Of a stretch of 64,000 nt of DNA, positions 29,563-64,000 are shown one piece after another. The stretch comes from Owenia fusiformis. Taxonomy: Eukaryota; Annelida; Polychaeta; Sabellida; Oweniidae. How positions within the stretch are numbered: the stretch's first letter is position 1; the number at the start of each line of letters is the position of its first letter. The position numbers and the translations under genes were made by a program. The notes under the pieces are model-generated. The model searched no databases. It was not told where the DNA came from and saw nothing but the letters and a program-made list of their open reading frames with translations. The stretch lies in the NCBI GenBank assembly GCA_903813345.2, contig CAIIXF020000012.1, positions 29,772,684 through 29,836,683 of the forward strand. The letters are read 5' to 3'.

Positions 29563-29754
29563 GGTTAGTGGTTACCATTCTGTTACCATTCTGTATTTTC
29601 AGATCTCTTACTGCTCTGACAAGGACAATATTAACACATCTAAATACATGTAGTTCTATTAACTGACATTAATTCAAATTTTGTTTTGTTTTTAACACTT
29701 ATATTACTAGATTATAATATACCAAGTCACATGTTTATTTATATTTTAGACAAC

Positions 29755-32700
29755 ATGGCACATGGAGATGGAATCTCGAAGGACATGTTCTACCAGATCA
29801 GTCTACAGCAACAAGGAGGACTGAGGAGACCTACAACAGCTCCTAAATGTCTAGAGGGGACAGGGATAAAGGTAAGTTCATATACAGGGTGTTCCGAAAG
29901 AGGGGACGGGGATAAAGGTAAGTTCCTATACAGGGTGTCCCAAAAAAGGGGACAGTAATGCAAATGCTTATGAAGCAGTGTGTCTCAAAAGAGGGGACAG
30001 GGATAACGGTAAGTTCATATACAGCTCCTAAATGTCTTGACAGGTCAGGAATAAAGGTTAGTTCATACAGGGTGTCCCAAAAGAGGGGACATAGATAAAG
30101 GTAAGTTCATTATACAGGGTGTCCCAAAAGTAACAGCTCCTAAATGTCTGGAGCGACAGGGATAAAGGTAAATTCCAATACAGGGTGTCCCAAAAGAGGG
30201 AACAGGAATAAAGGTATGTTTATATACAGGGTGTCCCAAAAGAGGGGGCTGGAATAAAGGTAAATTCATACGCAGGATGTCCCAAATGAAACAGCTCCTA
30301 AATGTCTGGGATGGATAGGATGGATCACAGGTTGTCTCAAAAATAAAATGACTGATTTTGCTTGAGAGTTTTCATTGATAATTTTAATGCTGCATTTATT
30401 GTAACACTACAAGAAAATAAATGCTGTGAAAATGTGAACAGGATCCATGCAGTAACTAAGGGCAGCATCTGTGTTTTTGGACACCCTGTATATATGCGCA
30501 TTACAGAATACTGCCAATTTTCTTGAGTTTGACATTTTGGCTTTGAGCTATATATGGGGGAGGGTGATTTGATTTACACGTTCAGTTTGGAATTATTTGC
30601 TACTGCATGGAATATCTGTTTTCATACCACTTTGTCTAGTAATCCTGGGCTGGCATGTATAAATCTTGCCATCAGAATTCCAGGAAAATGCTAATTATTC
30701 GATCAACTTGAAAGTGTTTATGATTCAAGAAGAGACTAAAAGTGTCAACATCTGATTTGGTTTCAAGCGTGATGGGTAAATAACATGATGCCATTTTGCC
30801 CTTCAAGGTGCGATATTTACCACTGTGTGTCTTATGATTACAATTTTTTAATCTCCAGGCACCTACGATGTCCAGAACGGCCCATACCACTGCATATACC
30901 ACACAAAGAGAACAGAAATACATCCCTGGTCTTACGCAAGCTCCTCCCTCCTCAGCTTCCCTGCCCCCCACTCTAGCAACACAAACTCAAGGTATCACGC
31001 AACAGCCAGCTAAAAGCACCCCTAAGAAAGTACCAAAAGCATTGATCGATGCATTCTTAAGTGGGAAGAAAAATCCGGTGAGTGCAATAATGGAGTATTC
31101 ATCCATGGTGAGGTACACGACCACATTTCATGAAACCTCCGTTGATCATCCATCCATCGTGGACCGTTTTGCCAATTATTGTGAGATAGAAGGCATTGGT
31201 AAATTCCCTCAGGGAACGGGGAAGACGAAGAAAGAAGCGAAAACAAATGCGGCAAAGATTGCATTCACGGCACTCTTAGGTGTTGAAGAGGATGATGTTG
31301 AAGATGAAAAAGGTAATTGTCTCAATGTCTAGGATTTCTACTTACAGGGTGACACAAAAAGACCACTCATATAATAGTATGCATATTTGTCTGTACCATT
31401 TCTTACTTGTTCTTTAGCATATTAAATAAAGTAGACTCAATGGAGCAACTCCACTAGAAGTATAAATTTTGCCCGGAAAATCCAGGCTTTTTTTGTGTCA
31501 CCCTGTATTATCCAACCGATTAAGTTCAGAAGGGAAAGCAGCCATTTGTTATCCATCTTTCGTCTATTTGTTCAACAATAACTTGAATACTAGTGGACAA
31601 ATTGAGTTTAAATTTAAGCTCATTTATGACTTATATGGGTGTAGAATCTCTAGTAGAGAATTAATTTTCAATACGACCACCTAATTTAAAATGGTCATCA
31701 TTTTTTAGAGAAATGCAACTATGCTGGTTGATAGAAGTGGTTTTAAATGTATACATGTACATGTAATAGTACATTTTTGGACTAAAGAGTTACAGTGTAC
31801 TTAATATAATGCTGTATTTGATATCTGTACATGTATTTCACCATTTTCAGAATCTGGTAAAGTACTATTTGATTCTCATGGACGTAAGATTGTGATGAAG
31901 AGCAATGTTAATGAGCCTAGCAGACCAGCCGTCCAAGAAGAAGATACCAATGATGAATACATACCAGGTTTGCATTGAATATATAGGGGTTATGCACTGG
32001 GAGGTTTTGGATATGGGGTTTATCCAGAGGGATATATGCATATCTACCTGAGGAACCATAGGGACGGAAGGTAGATGTGAAATTCTCAATAGTGATAAAC
32101 CCCATATCCAAACAAGTCGTACATTACGGCTTTATCCTATCAAAATTTTTTCACATTTTTTAGAATTTTTTTCTATTTTTTTCACATTTTTTTCTTAAAT
32201 TTTTCAACTTTTGTTTTCAAAAATTTTGTTCAACTTTCTGGAGCCTCAGAATCAGGATACAGGACATATCTTACCAACTTATCTCTCTAAAACTCTTCAT
32301 AGAATAAATCTTTTTATCTCACAATAAACCTTTATAGTATTCAGATGGGTTTCTACAATATTTCTTTTCATTGTTTATATCTACAAAATCTACATAAGTA
32401 CTGGTCAGATTTTGTGTATGAATCAGCCTACACACCTGGCAAATGTAGTACTCCAAAGGCTGTTTTGGTGTTGCTTTTTGAAAATCAAAGACAGGTGATA
32501 TTTTGTATCTCCATGAAAAATATTCATTATACAAGTCATCATCTTTGTCTAGTTTCTGTAAATAGTTCGCTAAATCGGCTGGTGAAGTAAAATCACGAAT
32601 GTCAATATAAGACTTTGGTGGTAGATATTTCTCATGGTTTGCACCTCCAAGAATTATGGGTACCACCTCTCTTATTGCAAGTGCTAGCCACAACTTCTCT

Positions 32701-35700
32701 GTTATGTAATCCTGACAGATATTATTCTCAAATGCAAGGTAAAACTTGTATGTCTTAAAAAGAGTATTTTCACAGTCATTTGATGTTGGACAATTCAGGG
32801 TGCCACATCCACCGTAGATATCCACTGGAACATGCTTGCCTAGCTCTTTTACATAATCCTGTCGGTTACTTCGTGGGTTACAGTTGCTGACAGCCCAGAA
32901 CAGAAGTTTGTTTTTTCTTGCCGCGAAGTCAATTCTGGTATCTAAAAACATGTTATAGATCACGTTGTATGTCCATATATGAGTGCCATTATATTTCCCA
33001 TATGGAAGCCAAACCAGACTTGATGGATAGTAGTTTATGGTACCGTTGAACATTTTCTGATTAGTTACATACGTTGCGATTTCGTTAGCCATTAATGGTG
33101 GACTTTCAAGGTTATAATACAACCAAATTTGTCCGGGCTGTCGCTTCGGCATTGAATACACATGTGGTTCAAAATAATGAAATAAGACAGCAACACTGTC
33201 TTCAATTGCGCTCTCGTCATGTGTAAACTCACATTTCAAATCTGGGCATTCACTGAACATGTCATTGATTTGTTCTTGTGTAAATTTATCGGGATGATAC
33301 ATCATTAAGATTGTTGTTTGGTTGACATTGCTGACATGTCTTACATTAGGATGTACAAAGTAGCCTGGGAACAAGTAGATCGCCAAAGTGACAATAATAC
33401 CGACTCCAATGATCAGCTTTAATACTTGGACCTTCCTCGATGCTATCGTTTTCAACATCATTCCAACTGAAAATGCATTATTGTAAAAATCTTTAGTTTT
33501 CCTGATATAAAGTATGCACTTTGGGGATTTTTAGAAAATAGACATGAAAAGGAATGACATTAGCCAGAAATATTCTAAAATTGAAACAAGTTTTTGTTTG
33601 GCCGCTCGCTAGATCTGATTCTCTCTTTAATAAAAGACAAGTGAAGTTTTATACTATATTGACTGTCATGTGTCATTTAATCAGATAAAAATGTACCAAG
33701 ATTAGCAATAGTAATTTAAATGGTTGGACTTAATTTCTCAATTCGTTGGTAATGCAGACAGACCATTGACTACAATTCCACTTATTGCTACATATATTAT
33801 CCAAGTTTAACATTAAAACATTCTGATACTCATAGTATCTTTGTGTTTCGCCAACTCTAAAGGCTGAGAAAAAATGAGATGTCATGGTTTATCATGATGT
33901 TAGCAAATATTGATTTTAAAGTACTTACTTGTAAATTACTTACGGTACTTGGGTGTACATGTAGGTATTAGTATTCAAGGAAGTAGATCGGCTTTACTCA
34001 TCTACTTGATTCATTAGTTTCCTGTTTTTCATCACTATTATAACAGTGGGCTATAATTTACAGGTAGTTACATGGGCTTTCAATGTCTCTTGAAAGCCCA
34101 TGGTAACTATTAGAGTATATCACTCACTTGTGTGTCTGTCCGTCTGTCAGTCTTTCCATCAGGCTGTCAACAATAATGGCATATTTTGAAACATCTGTCG
34201 GTAGGATTCCTGTTTTAAGTTATTTTTGTTCAACATCAATACAGTAACCCCCCTCCCCCCTATGACTCCCTGTTCAATAGCTCCCTTATTTTCAAAATGG
34301 CCACCATTTCACCTTTGCTCCATTTAGTAGCTTTATAAATAATTTCAGGTTTTCATCATTGTAAAAACCAATGTCACTGTAAATAGTTTTATTAAATGAT
34401 TTTGTAAAAAAATCTACAAAAATTTATATCCCCTTTTTTTTATCCATTTGTCATAATAGTGGCATGTTTTAAAACCACTATTGATAGGATTCCCATTTTA
34501 AGTTCATTTGGTTCATCAATACAGAAATCCTCCCCACGAGTTCCAGTTCAAAAACATGCCTATTTTCAAAATGGCTCTTTTTGAGCAACACCATGTGAGC
34601 CCAGTACCCATGGTACTATTTTTATAATTGATATCACCACCATACTGTACTTCACTCATCTTATCTCAGTTTGGATATCCAGATATAAAAACCTTTCAAA
34701 TATTACCTATATTTATTCAGAGTATCTTTGATCTGTAAATAACCTATATGCAAAAAGAATAATATATCGTATTGTATTATAAAAAAAATGCTTCACTCCT
34801 CTTGATATGAACAGTATTGTGAACTAATATTTTAAATATGACTGTAATGTCATATCATGTTTTGCTGATAAGAAAAGACAATGGTTCACATCTGGATGAT
34901 AAAACAAATATATACCGTTGTTCATAAATATGGATTATTTTCAAATTTACCGTTGATTTCCTCATTTTCAATGCCCTCTCAAATTTTAATGAATGGAGAT
35001 TTTTCAAATATTTTTTCACAAACCTGTCAGGAAAAAGAAACTTAACACAGTTATAACTAACAACATGTTTCATTTTCCAGGACTTATTCATTAGAATTCA
35101 TTCAAATCTTTGAGAATATTCTGGTAAAATAGCATATTCTTCAGACTAATAAAGGTTTCCTTGAATACAGTTATTTTAGAACAATCACTCTTGAATACTC
35201 TCATGCAATTACATTTTTATAACATTCATAGAATATCCCATATTATGAGCAATGGTGTATATACTGTATTAACGTATGCCAATGAAAAGTCTTGCCATTA
35301 TTATCCCACTGAACGAAATTCATAGGGATATGTTCATCTCTCCATTTGTTTGGGTAATAACTCAAATACCAATTCATGGATTTGGTTCAAATGTTATAGC
35401 CTTATGCCAATATGGGGGGGGGGGGCTTAAGAAGGATTTTTTCAGTATGGCCAGTTATTTAAAATGACTGCCATTTTTTGTAACAAGTAATCTTTAATGA
35501 TTCATATACCAGTTGACGATTTTGTTCAAATTTTATAAGCAGGTATTAATGGAGATAGGAGCTCTGTCAAAAAGGAATTCTCAAGATGGCTCGTGAATTT
35601 CAAAAATTTTTGAATTTAGGGGTTCATGCCATTACTCTGAAACCAAATACTCCGAAAAATTTAATAGTCTTAAACTTACAGAAAGAGAAATCAAACTTTA

Positions 35701-38700
35701 TGAAAATGTTATGCTGACATATTTTAAGCTTTTGCCAATTTTTTTATGCCATGCCTAAATAATGGCAATAAAAAAAATAATGGCATAAAAAATATTACGT
35801 TTGATAACTCAACCAGTTGATCAGCTTGATTCAAATTTTTTCTTTGCTGATACATCTTGGGACATAGGAGCTCTGTTGAAGAAAAAATTTAAAAATGACT
35901 GCCATTTTTCATATGTTTGATATAACTCAAATACCAGTTGACAGATTTGGTTCATATTTAGGAACATAATAGGACTCTGCTCAAGAAAGAATTTTTAAGA
36001 TGGCGACTCATTCAAAATGACTCCTATTTTTCATGTAAAATATTTTTTATAACATCTTAAACACTGTACCAGTTATAGAATTTTGGTGCAAATTTGATTT
36101 ATATCATGTAATGTACAATAATCATGTACAATTTTAATTATACTGTATAATACTTTGAATTGCCCTACACTTTGCAGTGATCTCCTCAGCATTAAAGCAA
36201 GTGGGTGCAGCACTCACCTGAGACTCTGAAAATAGGCTTGCACCCACCTGAAAATCCATTTGCACCCACTTGAAAATGAGAATAATCATGAAAAATGGGC
36301 ATATTTTGACCAAATTTGGCCTGAATTGTGAAAATGAGAATTTTGCTCCCACCTGAGAAAAAATCCTGGGAGATCACTGCAATGATAAGATAAATAACTA
36401 ATGAAGTATGTATCATTGTAGGTGCACATGGGCAAAGTACATCAATCGCTGCCCTCAGTAAGAACCCAGTGTCTGTATTACACGAATATTGTCAGTCTCG
36501 GAAGAAACCATTTACAATAGAAATCGAGGACATCCCAGGCCAAAGTGGGTATGTAATTAAAAGTCAGTTAAACCTCTTTATTCAAACACATCTCTTATCT
36601 GAAAATCTGTCAATTTGAGCACGTTTTTGGTCTCGTTATCTATCGACAGTAAAAATTGGAAATTTTCTTATCTGAAAACCTGTCAATTCGAGCGCGTTTT
36701 TTGGTCTCGTTATCTATCTACAGTAAAAAACTTGAAATCTCACATGAACATGTATTTGAATTCCTATTGTTCTCTCAAACTGTAATCATATGTAAACCCT
36801 ACATCTTAAATAACCAAGTTATCTGCATTTTACCTGTACCAAAAGGTTCTCTGCAACTGTACACATAGATGGCATGCGTGTAGCTTCAGCTGCTGCACCA
36901 AATAAAAAAGATGCAAAAAGAGAGGCAGCTGATGTAGCTGTGTCTATACTTCTTGCTTATGATAAGGTAATATGATTTTGATGTATCTGTTTTTTCCTTC
37001 TAGCTTATGATATGGTAATTTAGCTTTTAAAGAAAATGTAAAAATATCTCAGCACCATCTATACCTTTAATATAAAAGGTGAAGTCCATTTACTTAAAGA
37101 TCTCAGATTTTTAAAAAACTACTGGAAGTTTTTTTTCTGATGCTACAGTTCAAAATATTTCATTAAACATGGTCTCCCATGCATTAACCAATCAATTTAT
37201 AGGATTTATATCAACTTACCCAAATATTTATATCATCTAAAGATTAACATAAATAACTCATTAAATTGGATTTCTTGGTCAAAAATGGAATTTCCTTCAA
37301 AATTTGAACTTGGTACATTGAGTTGTTACCTTGCTTATGTTAAATGGGATTTCTTGGTCAAAAATGGAATTTCCTCCAAAATTTGCTTTGAACTTTTGAG
37401 TTGTTACCTACCTTGCAGCCAGAGGAAGTGAAAGAAGAACTCGGTCACTATGACAAGATGGCTGCTCTAAGTCACAGTTGTCTGCACAAACACCTCATGG
37501 CAGTACCAGAACACTATGCTGGACGCAAAATCCTGGCTACATTCATCATAAAAAGAAGTATGTTCACTGTTTGAACACATTTGTAATCCTCTTAATATGA
37601 ACACCTCTTAATATGAACACTTTCTCATCGTCCAAATTTTCTAATCTCCATTTGGGTTCTTTGTTAAATAAACCTTGAAATGATAAATATAAGATAAATT
37701 GAATTGAATTGAAATTGAAAAAATTGAATTGAAATGTGAACACCTGCTTGTTCCAACCACATTTGGCTGGTCAAAGTGGCGTTTCAATGACCCTTCTAAT
37801 ATTACTGGATTTCCTTAAACTTAGAAGAATTGAGTTGATAATGGTTTCCTTCAATGTTCATACCTGTAGTCTAGGATCATAATGAACCTAGTTGAATGCA
37901 AATCAATTTCGAAAATGGCCGTAGGAAATGGTGAAAATATGCTTTGTTTAATTCCCTAGGTCCCCTTAAAAATAAGTTTGTACCACTCTATAACTCCCGC
38001 ATTCAGAGACCAGCCCTCTCTTGATTACACTCTTGAAATGCAAATATCAGCACAAAGTTTTTCCAACTCCACCTTGGTAACTACAGAATTTTGTTTTTCA
38101 TATAGCACCCAATGATGATGGAGAAGTTGTTGCCATGGGAACTGGTAATACCTGTATCACCGGAGACAGACTAAGCATGGATGGACGTACACTGAATGAC
38201 TGCCATGCTGAGGTGATTGCTAGAAGATCTCTTTTAAGGTAAAGCCAAATTACAATATGACTCAAACATCCATCTTGATTCTCAGTGTATTACATGTAGT
38301 TGCATACTCCAACTTCACCTTAATATATCTAGTGTAGTGTACGATTACGTAAGACAAACAGATCACTTAAGAATCAATAGCTTCTTTTAATAGACACCTC
38401 ATTAAGGACCATAAAATTGTTATTTGTAAGTGTGGTTACTTGTGAAATGAATATTTAGACAAATTTGATTGGTACCGTGGTAAAACACACAGGGAATGAA
38501 CCACCACACTGTAATGGGACAGAAAAATCAGCTATTTGTTCCAAGGGGTGTTATAACCACTTGGAATTCGAAGATGTCAAACATCTGGGTCAGTGATATT
38601 TGACAAGGTAAAGCATGCTGTTTTAGGACATCCAGGCGTGTGAGCATATATCTTGTCATCAAAGTTTCAGGAAAACCATTTATCCATTAAACTTGAAGTT

Positions 38701-41700
38701 TTCTCAGATGCAAGAGTAGGCAAGTATCAAGAAAGATTTGATTAGCTTGGGCATGCTCTAAATAAAATGGCACCCGTTATGTCTATGTGATATTTATAAC
38801 TGTATGTCTTTTTTCAGATATTTGCTCAAAGAATTGAAAATGTTCTACGAAGGGAGCATAGTGCATTCCATTTTTGAGGAGAAAGAGGGCACCACTAAAC
38901 TTGGACTAAAAGAGCATATCTCTTTTCATCTTTACATCAGTAAGGCTCCCTGTGGAGATGCTGCCCTCTTTAGTCCAAGGTAAGTTAATGGAGATATTAG
39001 GGAGATTAAGCTACAAATTTTCGGGCAAATTTTTTAAGAATTTGTTCCTACACATGTATAATTATGGTTCACTAGGGATTAGTTCTTCCCTTTGTAGTAT
39101 TTACTTACTTGTTATCAAGTGTATTACAAGAGAGTTACATGTATCAAGGTATAAATAAAATTAGGTCATTGGAAAAGACAATTGAAGGGGGGACAGTAAT
39201 CCATGAAAGTCAAAATATTACACATTCTCATATGGGTTCTCTTGAAAAATATGTTATATTCAAGGGTCATTTTTTGGCTCACATTAGAGAGATTTCTCAA
39301 CTCACTTATAGCATGTTTATTATTACTGTATAATATATAACTTATAAAGCGTTTGATTACGTCATCATTTATTGCGCAGCCATAAGTGTCCATAAGTGTG
39401 ATATTTTTATGTACAGACAGCGATTTAATAATAAACACGCTATAAGTGAGTTGCGAAATCTCTCTATTGTAAGCTGAATCACCCATTCATCCATGTGTAG
39501 TGCTCTATCCCTTATACAGGGTGTCCAAAAAAAAGCAGGACCGAAAGAAAGTTGAATAACTCAGTCAATTTTGCATATTTTGTCTTGAAATTTCAGAATT
39601 ATTTAGTTCATTCAATGTGAATTTTGTTGTGAAAGTTTGACAATAATCTGCCAATTGAGTCAAAAATTATAGCTCCTTACAAAACATGCCCTAAATGTGC
39701 ACCTCTCCTCTCTATGCACAATTTAATCCTGCGATCAAAGTTGTTGATGATCCTCCTACACACATGTCTTTCTGAATGGACAAGTTTGTTTCAAGAACAA
39801 TTGCTACTTAGGCTTACTTTCCTCCTGATGAAGTGTTACAGCATCCATTGCATTCTGAGCAATGCACTGCCTAGGTGGCAATGAGGAAACATGGAATCAT
39901 CAGTCCTTTTTTGTTCGAGGGTGACTGGGGACATGCTATCACCATGAACAAGGACCAGTTAGTTCTCACTTAGTTTTTTGGAGGTCACTAAGCACCAGAA
40001 GGGACATCTTAGGAGATAAGCAGTGGTTTCAACAAGCCAATACCACCCCAAAACTGCAAATGATATGCTGAAATGGTCTAGGCAATGATTTGGTGGTCAG
40101 CTCATCAGTTGCAGAACGCAAACCATATGGGCAGCTCATTCCCCAGATCTAAATCCCCCAAATTTTTATCTTTGGGGATTTCTCAAGCCCAATGTGTATA
40201 CAGACAGGCCCCTAACAATCTTAAGAGGGCAATAACTACCCCAATATTTACCATCCACATTGATATGTATAGGTCAGGGTCATTAACAACTTTCTTAGCA
40301 GGAATCGTTTGTGCATAGAGAGGAGAAGTGCCCACTTTGACCATGTTTTGTAAAGAACTGTAGTTTTTGACACAATGGACAGATTATCATGAAACTTTCA
40401 GAACAAAATTCACATTGAATGAACTAAATAATTTTAAAATTTCAAGGCAAAATATATAAAATTGACCGAATTATTCAACTTTCTTATGGTCCTGTTTTTT
40501 TTTGGACACCCTGTAATTCTTTTTAAGCCTTCTTGTATGTTTGTTTTGTTTTACAATATTGTTACATGTAGTTTCTCCATTTAGACAAGAAAATCCTCTT
40601 AGTGATGCTGATTTAGAACTGATGAACTCGGGTGCCCACTATCCAACATTTCAACATGATACGCAAGGGAACCTGAGAACAAAAATAGAACTAGGTAAGT
40701 ATTTGAAATTGTAAAAATGTTGTGGAGTTCACGCTCTAAATCAGTTTGTAGTTTAATTAAGTTAAATTACGCAAAATTAAAAAATGTTGTTTATGGTTAA
40801 AACATGAGTTTTCATGACTTGAAAGTTACTTTTCATAATTAAAATTTCCTGTGTTTTTATTTGGCTAAAATTTCATAGACTGGAACCCCGCATGGGCAAA
40901 GGTCCTCTGAGAACTTCTTTCTAGGCCATTCAGTTCTAAATGGCTGCTTTTCATAAAAAGTGAAGTTATATCAGATTTTGTTCAAATATTTTATAAGTTG
41001 GGGATTTTTGGGCATAGAACCTTTAGTCAAAGACATTTTCCAAATTCGATTTTTAAATCAAAATGGCTGCCATTTTGGGTAAATCTTTTTATCATATCAT
41101 TACTTTAAGCTTAAATAGTCTGGTTGGTCACATTAAAATTAATAACACCTCATAAATTTACAATCTCAAAATTCAAAATGTGGCTGCCATTTTATTTCAA
41201 AAATCCAATGTTTTTAATTTAAATACAATTTGATGGATTTGAAATAGCCAATTTCATCGTTTTTCATGAAAAAGTAGATAATTTACCAAATATTTCATGC
41301 CAAAATTGTCATTGGTGTAGATTTAGCCAAAATGAGACATTTTGAAAAATCCTAATGGACATTTTGAAGATTTCACTGCTCTTACTCATACAAAAATGGA
41401 AAATGAAAAAATACTCAAAATTTAATTTGGAGCTTAACTTCTCTGTCAATTTTCAAAAAAGCAAAATTGCATTTTTTCAGTGGAACGACTAGCGACAAGT
41501 TGAGACTAAGTTATAAAATTGGCACAATACATCTACAAAGATTTCAAAGCTAAATCAAAGAGTGTTATTATTATAAGTTGTTGTGGATTTGAAGTTTATT
41601 GTTACATTAATTTTATTCTTCTCCTGTTTTATTTTAGGTGCAGAAAATGAGGATGGTAATGTACATTTTTATTTATTTATTATTTGTGTCAACCAATATA

Positions 41701-44700
41701 AGACAATCATATTTTGGATCAGAGAAGAGCTTACCTGTAGTTTGTTAAACTACATATTTTTAAGAGAACATGCACCTGAATGTATAGAATTATGGTCCTC
41801 GAGGGATTAGTTGCCATTCATTGTATTTATTAGACATGGAAGCCCCGCCTCTAGTGACTTTTTGACTATAGGACTTTTAATGGGTCACTTTCTGGGGTCG
41901 TGACAAATCTTAGATATATAAATAAAGCCCCAGAGGCGTTTTAATGCACCTACAGTATGTATTTACTTGCCCGACAGAGTATAAAGGTATGAGGAAAGTT
42001 TGAAAGGGGGACAGTAGTCCTTGGTGGTCATGAAATTACACATTCACATAATAAGTTCTTTTAAAAATGTGTAGCTTAAAATTAGCTTCCCTGTTATCTT
42101 TAAGAAATATACTTAACATGTAATGTAATTACAATAAGCTAATTGGATCATTAGATAATTTAGAACCCATTAACCTATCTAGATTCATGTAGAATAATTC
42201 GATAAGATAAGTTTTCGCGATTTTATCACTTTTATTCTCAAAATGATAAACTTAATATTTGACCTGTACATGTATCTCATGCGTAGGTCTTGTATGATTT
42301 TGAAATATGGTTACATCTTAGAAATATATAAACTCTTATGGACTATTGAAGTAGCATTGTGAATGAATTTTTATCTTTTGAAATTTTTTTCTAAACATCA
42401 ATACTGGATTTTGGCTATCTAATACTTGAGACAATATTAAAAAAACTGTTGATCTTTCTCCTTTGAAATTAGAAATATTTTTTAAGCTATTATTATTTAC
42501 TGTCAGATTAAAAGTCCATTCATTCAAGGAGGATTGGATCCCAGAATGCAATTCTGATATTATGCCATATATGGTGTCATGATGTCATCATTGCCGTGTA
42601 CAGAATTCACAATTGAACAGTCTCCATTTGTCGATTTTTCTCACTTCAGAATTTGAATTGCGAGTTTTGGTTTCATTACCTAACAAAAAATTCAAACACA
42701 CAAGAAATGGTCACATTATTTGTTCCAGGCCCGTAGCAAGGATTTGCCAAGGGGGGGTTCAGTTTTCAAAAGTTTCCAGGGGGGATCACATTTGACAATT
42801 TTGGCCCAAATATGGCTAAAATCACTTGAGAAGTGCTCCAAATAGTGAAAAACTGCATGATTTTGAAATAATTTTTCGGCCAGGGGCGGGTTCGCCCGAA
42901 CCCTGCGACCCCCCTGGCTACGGGCCTGTAGTTCAAATCCTTTGATTACTGATTGTGAATTTATAGCCAGATAAATGTTACATGTTGACAATAATGACAC
43001 TAGCTTTGTTGGAAAATATCGGTGTTGCATTCTGGCTGTCAATCTTCCTTGCATACTAGTGACCCACTGTAGTATTTTTTATCTGATCACTTAAGCCCTT
43101 GTTATTTTCTTATTTTTACTATTGTCAAAGTGGGTAATAATAATTTTTAACAAAGCTGCTCATATGTAATGTATGTATTATAGTTGATTTATGGAAATAA
43201 AATGATGATAAAAAAATCCTCCTTGCCATTCATTATAATGTACACTTGAAGGTGAAGGTACAATCCCAGTTGATAAAAGCAGGCCTTACATTCAGACCTG
43301 GGATGGTATCATGCATGGAGAAAGGCTGCGAACCATGTCCTGTAGTGATAAACTTCTACGCTGGAATGTCTTGGGCTTACAAGGGGCCCTTCTCAGTCAT
43401 TTTGTGAGCCCTGTATATGTCAGCTCAATAAGTATAGGTAAGGCGTTTGTAATACTCCTGTTGTATATTTCCTGTTCTTTTTTATGTGACTGAAAAACAA
43501 ACCAATGAATAATAAAACAAATATTTCATTCCTTGGAGCTGTAATGCATTAGACGTTTGTACTACTAGAGTATTCCCCATATTCCTTGTTCATTTTTATG
43601 TGACTGAAAAACAAACCAAAGAATAATAAAACAAATATTTCATTGCTTGGAGCTCTAAGGTATTTGACGTTTGTACTACTACTAGAGTATTCCCCATATT
43701 CCTTGTTCATTTTTATGTGACTGAAAAACAATCCAAAGAATAATAAAACAAATATTTCATTGCTTGGAGCTGTAAGGCATTTGACATTTGTACTACTAGA
43801 GTATTCCCCATATTCCTTGTTCATTTTTAAGTAACTGAAAAACAAACCAATGAATAGTAAAACAAATATTTTATTCATTAGAGAAACTATGATATATTGG
43901 CTAGATTGATGATGTCATATGTTGTACTTTCAAAATTAGCAAAAGGTTCTCATATTTTTGCTTACACAGATTGCTACCTACAACTGATGACATCATCAAT
44001 CTAGCCAATATATCAAAGTTCCTCTGATGTATCAAAAGGGGGCAGGGTTCATCGGAAAGGTCTCTTCTTGAATGTTGCTTCATGTATTTCAGGCTCTTTA
44101 TATGATCATGGCCATCTTACACGTGCAATATGCTGCCGTCTACCTGATGAACTCACTCACCAGGTAAATATCTTTGAACAATCATAAACAGGCTTGTAAT
44201 CTGCCATGTATTTACCCAGTCATTTTAGTACTAAATGGCACTGTGGTTAAGTCATATTCATTTTTTCTGGTTTCTTCTAATCCAACCTGTAATTACCTGA
44301 CTCGCACAATTTTTTTGTGGCCTGACTCGACCACAATAATATCACACAAATACAATGTATATGGTTCTTCAAGACATTTAAATCGGGCCACTATTTAACG
44401 CATTTCAATACGCATCCCCTTTTCAGAAATTGTCCATATAGTGTAGAAGAAACTTTTGATATGTTTAAATTGAGAAAAGCAAGATCCTCTTTTTAAAAAG
44501 TGCCAGGGTGGGGCCCTAATCCATAATTTTTCAGAGAGTTGGATTGATATTTTACTATCATGGGGACTTAGCTATATGCGCTTCTTTTCAGGTACCACCA
44601 AACAGTGGTTTTTATTTGTCACATCCGCATGTAGGACGTGTCACTCATTACGATCCATCCAGGGACGTTGAAAAATCCAACACTTTAAGCATAAACTGGT

Positions 44701-45843
44701 CTCACGAAGATGACAAGGTTGAAGTCGTAGATGCAAGGATAGGGAAAAGCACACCAAGGTGAGGCCACTGTGCTCCATCAGAATAATTCATTCCTGAACA
44801 AGATCATCATATGGTTGTTCGGAGAAATGCAATTTTATTACGTTTTGGAATTCGTCAAAATATGTGTTAAAATAATTCAATATTTTACTAAATTTACCCC
44901 CTGGTAATGAAATGGTTAATGAGACAACTGAGCAACTAGTAAATCTTTGAAAGAAGGTCAGATTTAGTTGACATTCATCTTTCCAATGGTATTAATAGGA
45001 AAATGGCATGATTTATGTCATCTCAATAGATAGACATTTACAGAAGTGTTTACAGAAATATATCATTTCGGATATTTTTTCGACTATGAAATTAAACTCA
45101 AAAGGAAGTAAATTATACAGTGAAACCTGTATATCCAAACACCTCTCTTCCATGAATTATCTGAATACATTTCAACATGAACACTTGTTTTGAGTCCAAA
45201 TTTGTAATCTCCCAAAGATGTTCATGTTAAGAAAACCTTGTAATGTGAACACCTGCTAATCTGAACACTTTTGGCCACTACCGGATGCATTCAAATCAGG
45301 TGAGGTTTTACTTTGCCTCTTTCATCCTAGATTTGCCTCACCTTTTAACATTTGCCTCACCACGTTTATGATCCTGCCAAGGGGTCTCACTAGAATTTCT
45401 CACAACAGGCTAAATAAATGAAAACAACAGGCAATATTAATGGAAATCATAAATTTAACATGGAAAAGTTGAAAAGTCCCTAAAATCAACAGGCGATTTT
45501 GTGAAAACAACTGGTGAAAATCGCCTGTTGTCTTCTACTAATGAAACCCCTGCTGCCTATACACTACTCTGATATTGTTTTCTCTTTCGTATTCAGGTCC
45601 CCATTTAGGACAAGTGCATCAGGTGCTAGTAGACTCTGCAAGATGGGATTTTACCACAGGTTTAAAGAACTAGCTAAATTAGCAAAAAGATATAAACTCC
45701 TTGATGCCAAAAACTATTATGAAGCCAAAATGATGAACAAGGATTACCAGACAACAAAACGGATTTTATTTAGTGTAATAGAAAATACAGGTTATGGTAA
45801 TTGGATAAAGAAGCCCATTGAAGAAGAGCTGTTCTATAAGTGA
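29755..45843 (+). CDS. ADAR: ADAR, double-stranded RNA adenosine deaminase (ADAR1-like)
   Basis: Fourteen coding exons join in frame: 29755-29871, 30859-31312, 31851-31967, 36422-36548, 36846-36966, 37419-37557, 38106-38238, 38818-38979, 40585-40694, 41638-41655, 43252-43437, 44093-44163, 44592-44758 and 45597-45843. They total 2169 nt, or 722 residues. Two dsRNA-binding domains (about 110-180 and 241-308, each starting KNPVS) precede an adenosine deaminase domain (about 320-720). All zinc and catalytic residues are present: CHAE (His392, Glu394), PCGDA (Cys448) and SCSDK (Cys530). GEGTIPV carries the base-flipping glutamate (Glu501 with the microexon). HLTRAICCR and HPHVGRV resemble ADAR1 more than ADAR2. 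The enzyme converts adenosine to inosine in dsRNA. No Z-DNA-binding domain is visible; an unseen upstream exon could add one. An AG acceptor at 29748-29749 shows a 5' UTR exon exists. Confidence 0.93.
29860..30310 (+). repeat. Tandem array repeating the ADAR exon 1 splice donor
   Basis: Units combine the exon end '(g)gacagggataaag|gtaagtt' with 'tatacagggtgtcccaaaag'. Donor-like sites follow 'ataaag' or similar at 29872 (the one used in the model), 29918, 30009, 30057, 30101, 30168, 30214 and 30260. The exon piece 'cagctcctaaatgtct' also recurs at about 30024, 30134 and 30291. The second half of each unit looks like a mariner-type terminal repeat. Confidence 0.85.
30640..30845. repeat. Intron-end repeat before ADAR exon 2
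   Basis: Roughly matches 38635-38812 ('atcttg(c/t)catca', 'ccaggaaaa', 'aacttgaag', 'gatattta'). Both copies end within about 30 bp of an exon acceptor. Confidence 0.45.
31345..31505. mobile_element. 161-bp mariner-type MITE
   Basis: The ends CAGGGTGACACAAAAA and TTTTTTTGTGTCACCCTG are flanked by TA on both sides. It lies in ADAR intron 2 just after exon 2. Non-coding. Confidence 0.8.
32319..33461 (-). CDS. Alpha-1,3-fucosyltransferase (GT10), nested in an ADAR intron
   Basis: A single coding exon of 380 residues lies antisense within ADAR intron 3. It has the type II Golgi layout: a short cytoplasmic tail, a membrane segment at about 14-36 and a luminal domain. GT10 signatures are present: [12 protein letters not shown]-x2-YVKEL (189-207), VDIYGGCG (213-220) and the donor-binding core [19 protein letters not shown] (240-258), then VPIILGG and [16 protein letters not shown]. 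Sequons lie at about N47, N139, N158 and N351. The family transfers fucose from GDP-fucose to GlcNAc in Lewis-type or core glycans; the exact acceptor cannot be read. An acceptor (gcattttcag) sits five bases before the ATG, so a 5' UTR intron is likely and a simple retrocopy is not required. Length is normal for the family and the frame is intact. Confidence 0.93.
   Translation of the reverse strand: MMLKTIASRKVQVLKLIIGVGIIVTLAIYLFPGYFVHPNVRHVSNVNQTTILMMYHPDKFTQEQINDMFSECPDLKCEFTHDESAIEDSVAVLFHYFEPHVYSMPKRQPGQIWLYYNLESPPLMANEIATYVTNQKMFNGTINYYPSSLVWLPYGKYNGTHIWTYNVIYNMFLDTRIDFAARKNKLLFWAVSNCNPRSNRQDYVKELGKHVPVDIYGGCGTLNCPTSNDCENTLFKTYKFYLAFENNICQDYITEKLWLALAIREVVPIILGGANHEKYLPPKSYIDIRDFTSPADLANYLQKLDKDDDLYNEYFSWRYKISPVFDFQKATPKQPLEYYICQVCRLIHTQNLTSTYVDFVDINNEKKYCRNPSEYYKGLL
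33470..36100. repeat. ADAR intron 3 remainder with degenerate 'aaaatggctgcc' repeats
   Basis: From about 34150 to 36100, blocks such as 'caaaatggc(t/c)(g/a)cc', 'aactcaaataccagttgac' and 'gatttggttcaaat' recur loosely every few hundred bases. They look like an old tandem or dispersed family. A hairpin 'catgggctttcaa…ttgaaagcccatg' lies at 34073-34101. No exon was found. Confidence 0.5.
36563..36735. repeat. 76-bp tandem duplication in ADAR intron 4
   Basis: Two copies of 'cttatctgaaaa(t/c)ctgtcaatt(t/c)gagc' through 'ctatc(g/t)acagtaaaaa' lie in tandem. The preceding 'agttaaacctctttattcaaacac' part recalls pogo/Tigger-type ends. It is 110 bp before exon 5. Confidence 0.65.
38635..38812. repeat. 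Intron-end repeat before ADAR exon 8
   Basis: Partner of 30640-30845. It runs to within a few bases of the exon 8 acceptor tract. Confidence 0.45.
39286..39465. mobile_element. 180-bp MITE with ~45-bp TIRs
   Basis: 'agagagatttctcaactcac' pairs with the complement of the right end (ttgcgaaatctctct). The flanks repeat att (39283-39285 and 39466-39468), a 3-bp duplication compatible with PIF/Harbinger. It lies in ADAR intron 8. Confidence 0.7.
39527..40513. mobile_element. Mariner-like transposon relic in ADAR intron 8
   Basis: The TIRs start CAGGGTGTCCAAAAAAAAGC and extend about 150 bp with homology at the right end. TA flanks both ends. On the plus strand at about 40133 a conceptual frame reads [16 protein letters not shown], the conserved C-terminal transposase block of mariner/IS630 elements. 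The rest of the transposase is heavily decayed or lost and stops interrupt the frames, so the copy is inactive. Confidence 0.8.
41638..41655 (+). other. ADAR: 18-nt in-frame microexon of ADAR
   Basis: gtgcagaaaatgaggatg lies between a strong acceptor (tgttttattttag) and a donor (gtaatg). It is phase 1 to phase 1, encodes AENEDG and can be skipped without a frame change, giving ELGEGTIPV instead of [15 protein letters not shown]. It is likely alternatively spliced. Confidence 0.65.
42726..42928. mobile_element. CAGGCCCGTAGCC MITE in ADAR intron 10
   Basis: The ends CAGGCCCGTAGCAAGG and CCTGGCTACGGGCCTG are complementary. The body has G-rich and C-rich stretches. The same family lies at 46045-46224 and 21955-22115. 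Confidence 0.8.
43440..43880. repeat. ~115-bp tandem repeat in ADAR intron 11
   Basis: Units begin 'tgaaaaacaa' at 43491, 43605, 43722 and 43836 (114, 117 and 114 bp apart). The open frame on the minus strand here is an artefact of the repeat. Confidence 0.85.
43886..44024. mobile_element. Short foldback next to the tandem repeat
   Basis: 'gatatattggctagattgatg' pairs with 'catcaatctagccaatatatc', with about 35-bp arms and a 65-bp loop. It ends about 70 bp before ADAR exon 12. Confidence 0.7.
45119..45313. mobile_element. pogo/Tigger-type MITE in ADAR intron 13
   Basis: 'cagtgaaacctgtatatcc' pairs with 'caggtgaggttttac'. The inside repeats 'gaacacctgctaatctgaac'. The TIR start CAGT(A/G)AAACCT is that of pogo/Tigger elements. 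Related degenerate pieces are at 2010-2220, 36563 and 37570-37760. Confidence 0.6.
45373..45552. mobile_element. Short MITE just before ADAR exon 14
   Basis: 'aggggtctcactagaa' pairs with 'ttctactaatgaaacccct', with 'caacaggc' and 'gcctgttg' inside. It ends about 45 bp before the exon 14 start. Confidence 0.6.
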
Positions 45844-58355: not shown

Positions 58356-58699
58356 TTAGATAATACGATATATCTTCATCGATGCCTCTTTGAATGAGTA
58401 ATACTTATTGTCTGGGGTACCAATAACAGAGCCCCAATCTTTCCACGTAACACATGAACCAACCCGAGGACAAACTGGTCCCTTTGAGTAGATACCAAAT
58501 AGATTAGCACTACGACAGTCCTTATACCACCATGGACCTTTGAGATGTACAGAGCAATTTAGAGTTCCATGTAAGTCATTATCAGAGTCATATGTAAAGA
58601 ACTGTTGACCGTTATGGAAAGCCATACTGTTCCCCAAAGTTCCTGTAAAACCTCCAATGGTCAGACGATAGTTGTCAACGTTAATATGGTCAATAGCAC
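58356..58699 (-). pseudogene. Fibrinogen-domain C-terminal half, partial copy
   Basis: The frame reads NYRLTIGGFTGTLGNSM, then YDSDNDLHGTLNC, WWYKDCRSANLFGIY and a C-terminal KIYRII before the stop at 58356. This is the calcium-binding and ligand half of a fibrinogen C-terminal domain (FReD, as in ficolins and FREPs). Homology to the copy at 63436-64000 stops abruptly near 58699, where an acceptor-like 'ctttttttag' occurs. No exon for the front half was found upstream as far as 62.8 kb. It is either an orphan exon of a gene with a distant 5' part or a truncated duplicate; I favour the latter. Confidence 0.7.
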
Positions 58700-58724
58700 T
58701 AAAAAAAGTGTTCATTGACTTCAA

Positions 58725-63435: not shown

Positions 63436-64000
63436 TTAGATAATACTATAGATCTTCATTGATGACTCTTTGAATGAATAATAATTGTTGTCTGGAGTAC
63501 CAATAACAGAGCCCCAGTTTCCCCAAATGACACATGCTGCATACCGAGGACAAACTGGTCCCTTTGCGTAGATACCAAATAGATTAGCACTACGACAGTT
63601 TTTATACCACCACGGACCTTTGTGATGTAAAGCGCAATTTAGAATTTCGTGTAAGTCATTATCAGAGTCATATGTAGAGAACTGTTGACCGTTATGGGAA
63701 GCCATACTGTCCCCCATTGTTCCAGAAAAACCTCCAATGGTCAGACGATATTTGTCATATCTTTCAATTTCAAAGATAGAATACTCGGCAAACTTTGCTT
63801 CACTTGATGGACCTGGCCACATTGCGAGGTCGAACCGAACTTTGTAGCTGCCCTGCATCAATACACTTGCAAGGTTATCAAGTCCGATAAAATGTTCCTT
63901 TCTTGCATACCCAAAGCCATGTTGGTATTCAGTCCATGAACGATAGAAGTCTTCTGTGCCGTCAAATCGTTTGAAGATATACATCCATCCCTGGTCGCAA
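63436..64000 (-). CDS. Fibrinogen-related domain protein, C-terminal part
   Basis: 187 residues are open from the window edge to the stop at 63436. They start CDQGWMYIFKRFDGTEDFYRS and run through W-x-EYQHGFG, HFIGLDN, YRLTIGGFSGTMG, the calcium site YDSDNDLH, the cysteine pair NCALHHKGPWWYKNC and SANLFGIY, to a C-terminal MKIYSII. This is almost a whole FReD lectin domain, found in secreted pattern-recognition proteins (ficolins, FREPs, tenascin-like). The true N-terminus, with any signal peptide or coiled coil, lies beyond the window. AATAAA signals follow the stop on the minus strand (about 63378-63391). The frame is uninterrupted, so this copy is probably functional. It is one of a tandem pair with 58356-58699. 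Confidence 0.88.
   Translation of the reverse strand, partial: CDQGWMYIFKRFDGTEDFYRSWTEYQHGFGYARKEHFIGLDNLASVLMQGSYKVRFDLAMWPGPSSEAKFAEYSIFEIERYDKYRLTIGGFSGTMGDSMASHNGQQFSTYDSDNDLHEILNCALHHKGPWWYKNCRSANLFGIYAKGPVCPRYAACVIWGNWGSVIGTPDNNYYSFKESSMKIYSII

Follow-up and report, generated by a model that had tools for sequence, protein, structure and literature searches.

Optional cassettes within the deaminase domain of ADARs are already known from mammals. In rat ADAR2, a 10-residue cassette following residue 465 has been reported to lower editing at several sites and to leave dimerisation unchanged, the CAPS1 E/G and FLNA Q/R sites being edited no differently (PMC5852575), and the Alu cassette of human ADAR2 (exon 5a) is found at the place homologous to the rat cassette (PMC5852575). 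Alternative splicing of ADARs has also been described in invertebrates: the isoforms of squid (ADAR2a/2b) and of Drosophila (exon 3a) differ by an additional dsRBD or by the spacing between dsRBDs (PMC10278661, PMC10666284). In addition, Drosophila Adar edits its own transcript at a Ser/Gly site near the active site, which lowers its activity (PMC10666284). Among annelids, the earthworm Pex-ADAR carries an ADAR1-type deaminase without a Z domain (PMC7762157) and is counted among the lophotrochozoan ADAR1 genes (for the group, PMC6651903). Text passages of the former account and section 5 of the latter mention no insert or microexon, and splicing terms gave just a reference-list match in a paper on planarian ADARs (PMC8797187). 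Within the open-licence literature, to which most subscription papers do not belong, no microexon of the ADAR flipping loop appeared among the titles and abstract openings of the matches listed.

This loop has been described in detail for ADAR2, where Gly487-Glu488-Gly489 forms the flipping loop and the adjacent Ser486 contacts the 3′ G (PMC11334849, PMC11120146). Flanked by a glycine on each side, Glu488 inserts into the duplex, where it holds the orphan base; Ser486 binds the 2-amino group of a 3′ G through its backbone carbonyl, and Gly489 clashes with some 5′ neighbours; the Gly-Glu-Gly of the loop has been described as strictly conserved (PMC11334849).

The window, that is the whole 64-kb stretch of DNA analysed here, covers bases 29772684-29836683 of contig C12 of the annelid Owenia fusiformis, whose genome was searched over 498.3 Mb in 525 contigs. 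An ADAR gene was identified on its forward strand at 29750..45843, for which a hand model, checked by translation, gives 14 exons including the candidate described below and 13 introns totalling 13.9 kb. The first ATG is at 29755, and exon 1, with which the model starts, itself carries an acceptor. The predicted protein has 722 residues if the candidate is included and 716 if it is skipped. Pfam assigns to it two stretches of dsrm and a complete A_deamin domain; the latter matches PF02137 over profile positions 1-329 of 329 in both forms, with 364.4 bits for the skipped form and 358.9 bits for the included one.

As to the class of this ADAR, a 306-residue query covering the deaminase part matched nine distinct solved sequences, of which an ADAR1 construct was the best (261.4 bits) and ADAR2 the next (203.7 bits), both human. 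The first-pass annotation had taken ADAR2 as its reference; the deaminase part scores higher with human ADAR1. In the stretch aligned with SPCGDARIF, alanine is present at ADAR2 positions 449 and 455, as listed for ADAR1s in Table 2 of PMC6651903. By eye, position 375 (Asn) is ADAR1-like, and position 376 is Thr, not Arg. On bit scores and diagnostic residues we classify the gene as an ADAR with what appears to be an ADAR1-type deaminase, not as a classical ADAR1, and in this it resembles Pex-ADAR. No match to Z-alpha (PF02295) lies at this gene; the genome has two such matches, both located on C6 and in the same orientation as the ADAR paralogue found there. Under the domain-count rule given in PMC6651903, an ADAR that has two dsRBDs and lacks a Z domain would be named ADAR2. 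The naming therefore varies with the criterion applied, since the deaminase points to ADAR1 and the rule to ADAR2.

The candidate microexon (41638..41655, forward strand) consists of 18 nt in phase 1 on both sides and encodes AENEDG. It lies in an intron of 2,557 nt (40695..43251, forward strand) that is excised whole upon skipping. Upstream, exon 9 (40585..40694, forward strand) ends with KIEL and the opening base of a Gly codon at a donor TAG/gtaagt scoring 6.35; downstream, exon 11 (43252..43437, forward strand) completes this codon and continues with the Glu-Gly of the flipping loop. The junctions of the candidate read ttattcttctcctgttttattttag/GTG at the acceptor and ATG/gtaatg at the donor, its flanks being ...ttttattttag and gtaatg..., respectively. 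Coordinates, length and phase were already part of the first-pass annotation and, like the splice dinucleotides, agree with the hand exon model, and translation yields both junction peptides it had proposed: skipping gives KIELGEGTIPV, with the usual LGEGTIPV restored, and inclusion adds AENEDG ahead of Gly-Glu-Gly. The deaminase alignment and the exon model likewise bear out the gene assignment, the reading frame and a location next to the base-flipping Glu; in human ADAR2 numbering the insert falls between the residues that correspond to 486 (Leu here) and 487. In both forms the Gly ahead of the flipping Glu is restored, the exon ending in G and exon 11 starting with GT; this is no sign of selection, since G commonly ends exons. 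By sequence the candidate has the features of a cassette microexon, i.e. a length of 3-27 nt, AG/GT flanks, an intact frame and no stop.

The splice sites, which had been called good, were scored with weight matrices built on generic animal frequencies. The description holds for the acceptor (6.84, second strongest of 14 in the ADAR gene) and less so for the donor (1.32, second weakest of 13), which has no G at +5. The acceptor region (41593..41637, forward strand) has a pyrimidine-rich tract with the branch-point-like words TTAAT and TTTAT, the next AG being 43 nt upstream. A second, weaker acceptor 6 nt downstream (3.58) would produce a 12-nt form (41644..41655, forward strand) reading LENEDGEG. 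With a summed score of 8.16 the candidate is the best of the four candidates listed for intron 40695-43251 and the only open one of such score in that intron with a length divisible by three. In the 64-kb window, on both strands, it is the sole pair of such length reaching both its scores; one further pair reaches them with a length not divisible by three. The exon is 78% purine and 44% GC, in a host intron with 31% GC, and the genome search with it gave one match, its own locus. Relatives sought in prokaryote and viral contig collections, in one scan each, gave none that was confirmed.

Neural microexons of the SRRM4 type have a UGC enhancer just upstream. TGC does not occur in the 60 nt upstream of the candidate, which gives no sign of such an enhancer. 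In a search for hairpins and inverted repeats spanning the exon, the predicted RNA folding of this region was unremarkable (z -0.11), and four inverted-repeat pairs bracket the candidate, with arms of 14-22 nt that are 77-94% complementary.

Exon 11 has a weak acceptor (ttgaag, -1.43, second weakest of 14), far below that of the candidate, which could indicate that the microexon is constitutive, so that this ADAR always has a longer loop and is perhaps weak, re-targeted or inactive. We consider such an arrangement improbable, as the weak acceptor of exon 11 is needed in both forms anyway, the standard loop is found in three paralogues of the same genome, and the spliceosome has more difficulty in always including an exon as short as 18 nt. 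The start of exon 11 (43246-43258), read by eye, offers two possible acceptors 6 nt apart (TTGAAG/GTGAAG/GTACAA); if the second were used, the flipping Glu itself would be lost.

The GT directly after the acceptor is also what would be expected of a recursive splice site, in which AG/GT at 41638 serves a two-step removal of the intron and no exon is left in the mRNA. This is very improbable: the regenerated donor (TAG/GTGCAG), at -0.45, ranks lower than any of the 13 donors in the model, the intron is merely 2.6 kb long, and five other exons of this gene (4, 5, 11, 13 and 14) start with GT as well.

A more serious alternative is that the candidate is a chance pseudo-exon, in which a T-rich tract of an AT-rich intron happens to be followed by an AG and, 18 nt further on, by a GT, and which is spliced never or hardly ever. 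As a background we used 20 pieces of 10 kb of the genome (200 kb, or 400 kb over both strands), in which genes were unmasked and some hits may be real exons. The acceptor of the candidate is unusual in this background, as only 34 of 21,240 scored AG sites in the 200-kb sample reach its score, and, together with its rank as the best candidate of the intron, this speaks against a pseudo-exon. Open candidates of a length divisible by three that equal or exceed both scores numbered three in 400 kb, all of 30 nt or less, corresponding to 0.019 per 2,557 nt and to a chance expectation of about 0.1 over the 13.9 kb of introns of the gene. When the summed score was used instead, six candidates of up to 30 nt (0.038 per 2,557 nt) and 16 of up to 60 nt (0.10) were found in the 400 kb. 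Among 1,500 dinucleotide shuffles of the intron, a match of up to 30 nt was present in 11 on both scores and in 39 on the sum, rising to 16 and 63, respectively, for exons of up to 60 nt. With chance giving 0.02-0.04 per intron and about 0.1 per gene, the splice signals alone are no proof of an exon: a site of this kind is unlikely for one named intron and not unlikely across the many introns of the window. Microexons occur at a rough prior of 1% or less per intron, and because of this rarity the scores alone favour chance. What raises the reading as a real exon is its location, together with its base composition and the extended stretch free of AG upstream; a combination of the next upstream AG at a distance of at least 43 nt with a YTNAY word was present in 0 of the 6 background hits of up to 30 nt, although this test was picked post hoc.

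The paralogues in the same genome were investigated for the corresponding intron. The ADAR gene on C6, with Z-alpha nearby, has an intron of 6,305 nt at the identical place and phase; in the joined peptide KMEGGEGTIPI it interrupts the codon for the second Gly of GG behind its first base. The C1 gene, which is ADAR2-like, reads IESGEGTIPV and the C9 gene VEMGEGAALM, both being intronless at the loop site; the loop region of the C11 gene was unmatched. The loop intron is therefore common to the two genes with ADAR1-type deaminases, since C1 and C9 read through, and in the skipped form the loop is as long as in the three paralogues, all of which (C6, C1 and C9) read the standard loop. No comparable candidate is present in the 6,305-nt C6 intron, where the best open candidate with a length divisible by three sums to 3.96 vs 8.16, and this agrees with a pseudo-exon in C12. 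Two acidic stretches in the C6 intron (6125 and 6677, reverse strand of L009) were rejected, neither having a good acceptor just before it. The loop is likewise without an insert in all four alignments with solved sequences that were inspected, out of nine. Inserting AENEDG costs 5.5 bits in PF02137, and the same residues cost 1.8 to 11.8 bits at six other places in the domain, so that the profile neither favours nor forbids the insert position.

The weak donor, the lack of an upstream TGC and the unremarkable fold count against a real exon. Taken together, a real exon and a chance site come out near balance, the weights given to the evidence being judgements and not computed. For a real microexon that is alternatively used and that reduces or redirects editing we put the probability at roughly 0.45, and the pseudo-exon stays a strong rival that may well be the correct explanation.

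Should the microexon be alternatively used, skipping would give an ADAR with the standard loop, the frame being intact and the loop length matching that of the three paralogues. By sequence, inclusion places AENEDG directly ahead of the adenosine-flipping Gly-Glu-Gly, the corresponding mRNA being putative. The Glu and both flanking glycines would be kept, the backbone contact of 486 would be shifted six residues off, and three acidic residues (E, E and D) would be added beside the native Glu, near the RNA. Editing may then be lower, or its neighbour preference changed with a weaker preference for a 3′ G; binding of dsRNA through the dsRBDs would be largely kept, and the protein with the insert may behave as a weak ADAR or as a competitor. 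An effect of the insert on ADAR activity, proposed earlier, is plausible in view of the structural literature and of the ADAR2 cassette isoforms. A more specific version, for which our expectation is rather low, is a splicing switch within the flipping loop of an animal ADAR, in which an acidic spacer yields a weak, re-targeted or dsRNA-binding-only protein, with a loop perhaps tuned by 0, 4 or 6 residues, as the second acceptor 6 nt downstream may give a four-residue version.

Compared with the known systems, the candidate would resemble rat ADAR2b and the human Alu cassette as an optional in-frame insert in the RNA-contacting large insert of the deaminase, where the mammalian examples have been reported to lower editing (PMC5852575, PMC11120146). 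Unlike these, which follow residue 465 in the 5′ RNA-binding loop, it would lie between 486 and 487, 21 residues away, and it is not an insert after residue 465 of an ADAR2. It is also shorter than the rat (30 nt) and Alu cassettes, acidic, putative and located in an invertebrate ADAR1-type deaminase. It would share with the Drosophila Ser/Gly site a change at the RNA level near the active site, although the latter changes one residue by editing and the candidate would insert residues by splicing. With the squid and Drosophila isoforms it has in common alternative splicing of an invertebrate ADAR, putative here, but it touches the catalytic loop instead of the dsRBDs.

Several other features were found in and around the gene. 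At 29859-30267, over about 400 nt, the 3′ end of exon 1 of the ADAR gene and the donor that follows (GACAGGGATAAAG/GTAAGTTC) occur in eight copies, 71-100% alike, copy 1 being the donor of the model and seven more lying in intron 1; the units of this donor look-alike array also hold CAGGGTGTCCC. Intron 3 contains, nested and antisense (32319-33461, reverse strand), an ORF of 380 aa with both glycosyltransferase family 10 (fucosyltransferase) domains. Within intron 8, at 39277-40515, there is an inverted repeat with 274-nt arms (39515-39788 and 40242-40515) that are 81% complementary and spaced by 453 nt, and a second one with 49-nt arms (92%); the ADAR pre-mRNA may therefore hold a dsRNA substrate of its own product. 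A tandem repeat of 114 nt in 3.6 copies is located at 43465-43875, in intron 11 of the 13-intron model. Outside the gene, two ORFs on the reverse strand (58356-58724 and 63436-63984) gave partial matches to the fibrinogen C-terminal domain (profile positions 117-218 and 46-218 of 221, respectively).

If the candidate is a chance pseudo-exon it is of little importance. Cassettes in the deaminase domain being known already, a microexon in the flipping loop would be new within the literature covered, on condition that it is used. In that case it would represent a natural length variant of a loop that enters the RNA, and a natural case of changed loop length for designers of ADAR-based editors, who alter residues of this loop (E488Q, PMC11334849). 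Its use would also point to splicing as a means by which animals can uncouple the binding of dsRNA from its editing.
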